A DNA stretch of 51,083 nt from Bacteroidota bacterium. GTDB taxonomy: Bacteria > Bacteroidota > Ignavibacteria > Kryptoniales > JAKASW01. The notes beneath the pieces are model-generated. The model searched no databases. It saw nothing but the letters and a program-made list of their open reading frames with translations, and was not told where the DNA came from. This document shows positions 2,407 to 4,799 of the stretch, piece by piece. The position numbers and the translations under genes are program-made. Position 1 is the stretch's first letter; every line of letters begins with the position of its first letter. Location: assembly GCA_021789975.1 (NCBI GenBank), contig JAJYIT010000030.1, forward strand, positions 1 to 51,083, in the 5' to 3' direction.

Positions 2407-3816
2407 TCAGCCGCCCGACGTTTCCTGATTTCCGGAAATCAATGGATTCTGTTGACCCTTCTTTTTCCAATACACATATGCTGGTACACCTACCAAGACA
2501 AGCCCTAGGCCGAATAAGGAATCCCTCGGGTCTGTAACAACTGTATTATACACAAACCAAATCGCGATGATCACGAAGGCAAGGGGAACTATCGGGTAAC
2601 CTATCGCCTTGTACGGCCGCGGTGCATTGGGGCGTTTCTTCCTCAGTACGAATATCCCGAAAGCACCGATAGCATAAAAGAGCCATGACGCGAAAATCAC
2701 GTATGTGAAAAGTTGGTCGTAAGTCCCTGTTAGTGTCAACACCGAAGCCCACACCCCTTGAACCAAAAGTGAAACGTGTGGAGTTCGATATTTTGGATGA
2801 ACATCAGAAATATGTTTGAAGAATAAACGGTCCTTAGCCATTGCAAAGTAGACCCGCGCCGTCGTCATCGTGGTAGCGTTGACAGTTCCGAAGGTAGATA
2901 TCATTACTGCGATTGCGATCAATGCACCACCATTCTGCCCGAAGAACTTTGAAATCGCATCCGAAGCTACAAGATGAGAATGAGCGATCCCGGAAACGGG
3001 GAGTACATACATGTATGCCAAGTTCGCTGCGAGATAAATGAAGATAACAGATGTCGTGCCCACGATAAGCGCTATAGGTATATTGCGTCGTGCGTCTTTC
3101 ACTTCGCCCGCAAGATAGGTGACGCTATTCCAGCCGTCGTAGGCCCAAAGGACAGAAACGAGGGCGATGCCGAAAGCGCTGAGAAGGGAAGCTCCGTGCA
3201 ACGATGCACTTGAAAAAAATGGTGTAAATGTCTGGCCGCTGTGATTGCCAAAGATGAAACATGAGAAGACTATCCCGGCGATTGCCAGTATTTTTAGTGA
3301 TGTGAAAAGTCGTTGTACAAATCCGCCGAATTGGACACCGAAGTAGTTTACAGTCATCACGAACAAGATCGCGCCGATGGCCACGAGCTTTGTGCCCACC
3401 TCAGGCATCGTCAACAGACCAAAATTGATCTGGAGTCTGCTCAAACCGGGGAAGAAGAAGCCCAGGTACTTTGCAAAAGCGACTGCGATCGCTGCTATGG
3501 ATCCCGTCTGGTAGACAATGAAAGTGGTCCATCCATAAAGAAATGCGATGAAATCGTTATAGATTTCTCTGAAGTATACGTACTGTCCTCCGGCGGCAGG
3601 TATCATCCCGGCGATTTCGGCATTCGTAAGTGCTCCGGCAAGCGATAGGAGACCTCCGAAAATCCATACCGCAATAATCCAACCAGCATCTCCGAGGGTG
3701 AATGCGATCTTCTGTGGAACCAGGAATATGCCCGAACCAATTATTGATCCAATGACAACCGCGATCGCTGTCGTCAGACCGAGTCGGGTGGCTAGACCAG
3801 TATGCTCTATTTCGAT
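2407..3816 (-). CDS. APC-superfamily amino acid permease, apparently with an ATC start codon
   Basis: The product resembles LAT/AAT-type amino acid permeases, which exchange or import amino acids across the inner membrane. The first helix holds GSIIGSGIFLVPQ, the unwound substrate-binding segment typical of the family. MIPAAGGQYVYFREIY begins the conserved segment at helix 3, and about a dozen helices follow, including VLWAYDGWNSVTYLAGEV. The first ATG in frame (3606-3604) falls after about 70 conserved residues, so it cannot be the true start. No ATG, GTG or TTG exists further up to the in-frame stop. ATC at 3816-3814 follows GGAGG by four bases and gives 469 residues, a normal family length. 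The gene starts 11 bases after the enoyl-CoA hydratase-like gene, so the two are probably one transcript. A base error at the start codon is the main alternative. Confidence 0.85.
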   Translation of the reverse strand: MEIEHTGLATRLGLTTAIAVVIGSIIGSGIFLVPQKIAFTLGDAGWIIAVWIFGGLLSLAGALTNAEIAGMIPAAGGQYVYFREIYNDFIAFLYGWTTFIVYQTGSIAAIAVAFAKYLGFFFPGLSRLQINFGLLTMPEVGTKLVAIGAILFVMTVNYFGVQFGGFVQRLFTSLKILAIAGIVFSCFIFGNHSGQTFTPFFSSASLHGASLLSAFGIALVSVLWAYDGWNSVTYLAGEVKDARRNIPIALIVGTTSVIFIYLAANLAYMYVLPVSGIAHSHLVASDAISKFFGQNGGALIAIAVMISTFGTVNATTMTTARVYFAMAKDRLFFKHISDVHPKYRTPHVSLLVQGVWASVLTLTGTYDQLFTYVIFASWLFYAIGAFGIFVLRKKRPNAPRPYKAIGYPIVPLAFVIIAIWFVYNTVVTDPRDSLFGLGLVLVGVPAYVYWKKKGQQNPLISGNQETSGG

Positions 3817-3827
3817 GGTGCCTCCAA

Positions 3828-4799
3828 CTAAGATCCCTCTTTCATGCTAGACCCGCAGTACACGCAGAACTTGAAATCGGGAGAAACCTTCTTCCCGCAA
3901 TTGAAACAGATTTTCAGATTAGAGGATTTTTGTTCTCTCAGCATATCGTAGTTAACCGGGCGACGCTCGTTGAACGCCTTGATCCCTTCTTGAATCTCAA
4001 GAGTAGGCATATGCACTGCCAGCCAGTCGCGCAGATGGCCGACAGTCAGCGACCAGGAGAAATTCTTCCAGAAATTGAGTTGTTCCCGCGTATATCTTGT
4101 GCATTCCGGTAACTTGTTGTAAAGCTCTTCACAGACACGGTCCAACTCCGCACCCAGTTTCTTTCTAGGGACGACAAAATTGATAAGCCCCCAGTCGCGG
4201 GCTTCGGTTGCGGTGAGTGTCCTCCCGAGGAGGAGCATCTCGCGTGCCCTTCTTTCTCCGACGACGATCGGCAGCCATTGTGTAGCGCCTGCTGCCGGTA
4301 CGCTCCCTCGTGACGTTCCGACATGTCTAAGCGAGATGTCGTCGGCCGATATTGCAAGATCACAAGAGAGACTAAGCTCAATGCCTCCGCCAACCACCAT
4401 CCCGTTTAGCAGTGCAACGGTCGGCTTCCCGATATTGCGTAACCGGTCATGCATCTCGATGAATATGGACATCCATTTATAAAGATCATTCGGATGCTCG
4501 AGCAGCTCATCGTTCCATTCTTTGAGGTCGGCACCAGTACAAAAAGCTCTCTCACCAGTTCCCGTTACTACCAGAACCGCAATTGAATCATCAAAGGACG
4601 CATCCTGAAATGCGGTCGCCATTTCACGCATCGTGTCGAAGTTCAGCGCGTTCATAACATCGGGGCGATCCATGGTGACAGTAGCCCGATATCCGGTCTT
4701 GTCGTACAAGATGTTCTTAAATCCGAAACTGTCCGGCGATCTTCCTTTCAACTCATTCATTCGAGTTTTCCGATGACGATGAATTGTTTCATCCTGCAC
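3828..4799 (-). CDS. Enoyl-CoA hydratase/isomerase-family protein with C-terminal zinc ribbon
   Basis: The 323-residue product has a crotonase domain at about residues 25-285. It shows the oxyanion-hole segments AFCTGADLKEW (near 86) and MVVGGGIELSLSCDLA (near 134), with the first family Glu at about 141. The second catalytic Glu of true enoyl-CoA hydratases is missing: the aligned segment reads GTSRGSVPAAGATQ, with Gly at that place. This resembles MenB-like and other non-hydratase members. After a short linker, residues 298-315 form a CxxC...CxxC zinc ribbon (C298, C301, C312, C315), an unusual tail for this family. A GTG start at 4799 is used here; ATG at 4760 is possible and neither has a strong ribosome site. 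Its substrate is unknown, and it precedes an amino acid permease in the same unit. Confidence 0.85.
   Translation of the reverse strand: MQDETIHRHRKTRMNELKGRSPDSFGFKNILYDKTGYRATVTMDRPDVMNALNFDTMREMATAFQDASFDDSIAVLVVTGTGERAFCTGADLKEWNDELLEHPNDLYKWMSIFIEMHDRLRNIGKPTVALLNGMVVGGGIELSLSCDLAISADDISLRHVGTSRGSVPAAGATQWLPIVVGERRAREMLLLGRTLTATEARDWGLINFVVPRKKLGAELDRVCEELYNKLPECTRYTREQLNFWKNFSWSLTVGHLRDWLAVHMPTLEIQEGIKAFNERRPVNYDMLREQKSSNLKICFNCGKKVSPDFKFCVYCGSSMKEGS

Follow-up and report, generated by a model that had tools for sequence, protein, structure and literature searches.

In a genome carrying an amino acid permease gene on the window analysed here (51,083 nucleotides, the whole of contig C2 of genome G000, whose assembly has 85 contigs), and likewise in the sister genome G005, this gene is probably translated from a near-cognate AUC codon. 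The start is well supported by comparison, short of proof: the aligned genomes give the reading frame, the lack of a usual start, a conserved pair of Shine-Dalgarno (SD) element and AUC, a signature of purifying selection on the protein, and near-cognate starts elsewhere in the lineage. The AUC codon looks like a genuine regulatory start, likely of low efficiency, and not an error of sequencing.

Permease gene and its start region

Read from ATC, the gene (positions 2407 to 3816, minus strand) encodes a LAT-like APC transporter of 469 amino acids (Pfam AA_permease_2, E = 7.7e-56). Membership in the APC superfamily was indicated by the match of residues 12-426 to PF13520 (AA_permease_2), which scored 190.3 bits against a cut-off of 27. 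The best NCBIfam match was the L-type amino acid transporter model TIGR00911, with 241.1 bits and a cut-off of 701.8; the permease is a relative of this subfamily and was not filed as a member. The nearest solved structure by sequence was 6f2g, entitled 'Putative amino acid/polyamine transport protein' (residues 15-453, E = 1.1e-68), which we take to be BasC. The likeness to BasC-like LAT transporters is one of sequence over this range.

An in-frame TAG (3847-3849, minus strand) bounds the permease frame on its upstream side, and the open part begins at 3846. None of the 80 codons between 3846 and 3607 is ATG, GTG or TTG, and the first in-frame usual start is the ATG at 3604-3606 (minus strand), downstream of the first helix. 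Neither the 10 open upstream codons nor any codon before codon 71 therefore offers a usual start for this conserved protein. Initiation at ATG 3606 would remove the conserved first-helix motif GSIIGSGIF (3724-3750, minus strand), which has a similar counterpart in the aligned relatives. The proposed start is the ATC at 3814-3816 (minus strand), the sole start-like codon common to G000 and G005 from codon -10 to codon +20, with no usable ATG, GTG or TTG. The original prediction had described a frame open from about 3846 that lacks ATG, GTG and TTG until 3606, conserved first-helix residues encoded ahead of that ATG, and an ATC at 3816-3814 with GGAGG four bases before it. Reading the frame codon by codon confirmed this description, and every checkable point of the sequence observation was correct.

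The SD element GGAGG lies at 3821-3825 (minus strand), separated from ATC by the spacer CACC, and its GGAG is kept in G005. Since the 3' end of the 16S rRNA of G000 reads GGATCACCTCCTTTCT, GGAGG can pair with it, and the calculated duplex energy is -9.3 kcal/mol. A duplex at least this strong was found at 21% of 364 gene starts of G000, compared with 4.6% of internal usual codons. The SD of the G005 ATC is modest (-6.6 kcal/mol), as 42% of G000 starts and 18% of internal usual codons have one at least as strong. When spacing was taken into account, GGAG at a distance of 5, as for ATC, was 5.4-fold enriched at starts over internal codons in G000.

Comparison with the sister genome and the genus

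The genus comprises 13 genomes including G000, and the permease was present in all 13. Top matches, one per genome for the 12 others, were 78 to 89% identical. The nearest relative is G005, a metagenome bin, whose permease shares 89% protein identity with that of G000, while only 40% of the third codon positions are identical. The two genomes were sisters in the permease tree (support 99/99) and, with weaker support (87/88), in the IF3 tree.

The junction of the two genomes aligned without a gap, and G005 has ATC at the matching site with GGAG at the same distance, five bases before. None of the five spacer bases is common to the two genomes, and the 30 bases preceding ATC are 43% identical. 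From this adjoining identity and the 14 of 34 isoleucine codons that are identical between the two permeases, we estimated the chance that GGAG and the C of ATC alone would be conserved at approximately 1-2%. Protein similarity also breaks at ATC: when residues were read from the codons, 2 of 10 matched upstream and 13 of 17 matched downstream. The alignment with orthologous loci, which the original prediction had proposed as a check, thus placed ATC at this codon in the closest relative.

These data bear on a sequencing or assembly error at 3814, an alternative that had been raised with the original prediction. G005 is a metagenome bin and the assembly of G000 is fragmented, so that erroneous bases are conceivable in either. 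However, the same ATC with GGAG occurs in a second assembly in which about 60% of the third positions differ. An identical error would be needed in two genomes with 40% third-position identity, which is a strong argument against this explanation; we rejected it as highly improbable.

Other near-cognate codons of G000 were also considered as starts, namely ATA at 3810-3808 (codon 3), CTG at codon 14, and a second ATC at 3834-3832. Translation Table 11 lists ATA, ATC and CTG as possible starts, and the ATA sits 10 bases after GGAGG. Nevertheless, none of the three is kept in G005, where GTA, CTC and TTT are found, respectively. Moreover, GGAG at a distance of 11, as for the ATA, was only 1.4-fold enriched at G000 starts, near background. 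Initiation at any of these codons is accordingly considered quite unlikely, and ATC 3816-3814 remains the preferred start.

In G005, two in-frame TTG codons lie 14 and 31 codons upstream of ATC, and neither is accompanied by GGAG, GAGG or AGGA. The nearer one, inside the upstream hydratase gene, has a duplex energy of -0.3 kcal/mol, which amounts to no SD, and G000 has a stop codon between the matching site and ATC. This TTG is probably what a gene caller would pick.

The other 11 of the 13 genomes have a usual start (ATG, GTG or TTG), the nearest upstream copy of which lies 1 to 10 codons before the aligned ATC position. The arrangement GGAG-N5-ATC, in which a near-cognate codon and an SD at working distance are conserved together, was found in one of the 12 genus relatives, the sister species. 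Because the 11 other genomes have usual starts nearby, the ATC start seems peculiar to G000 and G005, and the switch to it appears confined to this pair. Relatives with ATG at the ATC codon had been named beforehand as evidence that would speak against an ATC start; the usual starts of the 11 genomes are all at other positions.

The usual starts of these 11 genomes also suggest that the pair lost one, and the ATC might accordingly be a decayed start of an unexpressed or degenerating gene. The codon differences argue against this reading. The permeases of G000 and G005 had identities of 0.888, 0.963 and 0.403 at the first, second and third codon positions, and among 457 codons we counted 239 synonymous and 53 non-synonymous differences, with intact frames in both genomes. 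This excess of synonymous differences indicates that the permease protein has been under purifying selection in this pair. We therefore regard decay of the gene as very unlikely.

Upstream hydratase gene and overlapping frames

An enoyl-CoA hydratase-like gene with a C-terminal zinc ribbon (3828-4799, minus strand; Pfam ECH_1 and Zn_Ribbon_1) precedes the permease, and the two are directly adjacent in five of the 13 genomes. Its TAG (3830-3828) ends 11 bases before ATC in G000, and the corresponding distance in G005 is 20 bases. Relative to the hydratase frame, that of the permease is shifted by -1 in both genomes; in G000 it runs without a stop through the final five sense codons of the hydratase. 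A -1 frameshift ahead of the hydratase stop could thus yield a hydratase-permease fusion, as had been suggested as a second alternative to an ATC start. No X-XXY-YYZ heptamer was present in G000 from 60 bases upstream to 30 bases downstream of ATC, as the original prediction had stated for slippery heptamers, and the one such string of G005 follows the hydratase stop. In addition, the overlapping residues are unconserved between G000 and G005. With no slip site in G000 and no conservation of the fused part, a frameshift fusion is scarcely credible.

Directly after the hydratase stop, a six-codon frame (3807-3827, minus strand) overlaps the permease start. It reads TTG GAG GCA CCA TCG AAA TAG in G000, and its equivalent in G005 reads ATG GAG AAG AAA TCG AAG TAG. 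This small frame might be the real landing site of ribosomes, from which the permease frame would be reached by reinitiation near its TAG or by a -1 shift. Consistent with such a role, both genomes have a usual start directly after the stop of the hydratase frame, the TAG overlaps permease codon 3, and the SD of the G000 TTG (-14.0 kcal/mol) is stronger than that of ATC. On the other hand, the ATG of G005 lacks an SD (-2.7 kcal/mol), the peptides differ (LEAPSK in G000 and MEKKSK in G005), and the shared TAG and TCG AAR codons are a consequence of conserved permease codons. The -1 shift would lack a slippery heptamer in G000, and reinitiation at ATA would face GTA in G005. The six-codon frame gives no permease frame unless a shift or reinitiation takes place. 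This route to the permease is therefore judged unlikely, and direct initiation at AUC is preferred. The small frame may serve as a leader, competing with the AUC start or feeding it.

Near-cognate starts elsewhere in the genome and genus

We surveyed 1.23 of the 4.70 Mb of G000 (26%) for coding signal at least 12 codons upstream of the first usual start, using a codon-usage score devised for this analysis. A near-cognate start escapes this flag if a usual codon occurs upstream of it or in the first 12 codons past the coding boundary. In total, 24 of 964 coding-like ORFs were flagged (14 of 676 and 10 of 288 in the two parts), and the permease had the highest score among the 14 ORFs flagged in the first 829 kb. 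Relatives backed four of the 24 as near-cognate starts, namely those of the permease, infC, rpsF and an ABC-2 permease; 18 were left out of the comparison. The same survey of G011 flagged five of 338 ORFs, which were likewise left out of the comparison with relatives.

The infC gene (G000:C79:155613-156233, minus strand) starts with ATC in nine genomes of the genus and with ATT in the other four, and every one of the 13 has GGAG 6 to 10 bases before this codon. Upstream of the conserved N-terminus, usual starts were absent from all of these genomes. The original prediction had drawn an analogy between the permease and the AUU of infC, and the starts of infC in this very genus make the comparison apt.

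The rpsF gene for ribosomal protein S6 (G000:C54:20470-20894, plus strand) has a putative CTG start. Each of the 13 genomes has this CTG nine bases after AGGAGG and an in-frame TGA in the interval, and from that TGA to the conserved N-terminus 12 of the 13 have no ATG, GTG or TTG. The exception, G009, has ATG two codons before CTG. Outside the genus, ATG or GTG was found in all 20 relatives read, out of 45 with a match. The SD of rpsF is extended, with duplex energies of -17.9 kcal/mol in G000 and -18.4 kcal/mol in G011.

The fourth gene encodes an ABC-2 type permease, named from its sequence (L331:15021-15311 on contig C85 of G000, plus strand). Its start is CTG in G000 and G005, and TTG occupies the same codon in G006 and G008; a match was found in four of the 13 genomes. 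The G000 copy is broken downstream by an early stop, and the relatives have long open frames.

Two further flagged ORFs of G000 were noted. A gene for an LCM-type methyltransferase (G000:C79:134574-135464, plus strand) has GTA GAC ATT where G005 has ATG GAT ATC, with no usual start upstream in G000. The ORF at G000:C37:259224-260285 (minus strand), which shows coding signal ahead of the first usual start codon, looks like prfB, presumably encoding peptide release factor 2. As prfB is a known +1 frameshift gene, upstream coding signal is expected for it.

Initiator tRNA, IF3 and RNA structure

Components that might alter start-codon selection were examined. Of 45 tRNA loci in G000, 43 (30 and 13) were scanned for an anticodon, and three of the 43 have CAT. 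A three-GC anticodon stem and a mismatched first pair are the marks of initiator tRNA, and one of the three (L185) has both. This initiator-like tRNA has a normal CAT anticodon, giving no sign of an altered initiator tRNA that reads AUC. IF3 is present in all 13 genomes, and that of G000 aligns normally to solved bacterial IF3; at the level of this alignment, an altered IF3 was rejected. A conserved RNA fold at the start was not found either: for the two segments, 174 and 189 of 200 shuffles folded at least as well.

Discussion

Here, we propose a model of initiation at the permease AUC. GGAG(G), 4 to 5 bases upstream, would hold the 30S subunit on AUC, and the initiator tRNA, with its unchanged anticodon CAU, would pair with the first two bases and leave a mismatch at the third position. 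Ribosomes that terminate on the hydratase stop, 11 bases upstream in G000 and 20 bases in G005, could possibly reload, which would couple the two genes. IF3 disfavours weak third-position pairs, according to PMC10158994. Because IF3 tends to reject mismatched complexes of the AUC type, initiation there should be inefficient and IF3-sensitive, giving a low, IF3-dependent level of the permease. For initiation itself as well as for low yield, IF3 sensitivity and coupling, the model draws on established knowledge of infC and sigR. The interpretation given in the original prediction is hence partly supported: the ATC start gained support from G005, which keeps GGAG-N5-ATC, and throttling of the permease by IF3 through AUC is plausible by analogy.

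Known systems resemble the permease in different respects. According to PMC5472188, infC begins with ATT in E. coli, and with ATC in Streptomyces. In infC, as in the permease, a GGAG-type SD accompanies a near-cognate AUN start, which is ATC or ATT throughout the 13 genomes. However, infC encodes a translation factor that is autoregulated, and its unusual start is found widely, whereas the permease is a metabolic gene with ATC in two sister species only. The Streptomyces sigR gene, described in the same paper (PMC5472188), has a conserved GTC start after the conserved ribosome-binding site (RBS) AGGAGGTG and is repressed by IF3. It is thus a gene other than infC with a conserved noncanonical start and a conserved RBS, and the IF3 repression reported there would be expected by analogy for the permease. 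It differs in having GTC rather than ATC and a longer RBS, and the IF3 effect is experimental in sigR only. In S. aureus, cvfC1 (AUU) and ccpN (AUA) have conserved starts that reduce translation and depend on the SD, as described in PMC13009471. The permease shares with them a conserved near-cognate start. The genes cvfC1 and ccpN have extended SD motifs; the SD of the permease is ordinary in both genomes, and it is the rpsF SD of this genus that is extended.

Near-cognate starts are a known kind of signal, and outside infC they are rarely documented. Among the papers listed by our literature search, none appeared to report an AUC permease start or a genus-wide spread of near-cognate starts; wording on such a start codon occurred once each in PMC10303841 (B. 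subtilis RNase Y) and PMC2678158 (an archaeon). It returned nothing on a CUG start codon for rpsF, nor on start codons of Kryptonia. The permease as a member of this class and the spread within one genus are thus absent from the search results. Such genes are truncated or overlooked by gene callers limited to ATG, GTG and TTG, and the usual call for the permease would lose its first 70 residues together with the first helix.

We tentatively raise the possibility that the genus uses an enlarged set of start codons, with AUC, AUU and CUG serving infC, rpsF, the amino acid permease and the ABC-2 permease, in which case the level of IF3 could jointly set the synthesis of a ribosomal protein and of transporters. 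The SD-AUC pair of a second species, together with the AUC or AUU of infC and the CUG of rpsF found genus-wide, opens the choice of start codons in this uncultured lineage to testing.
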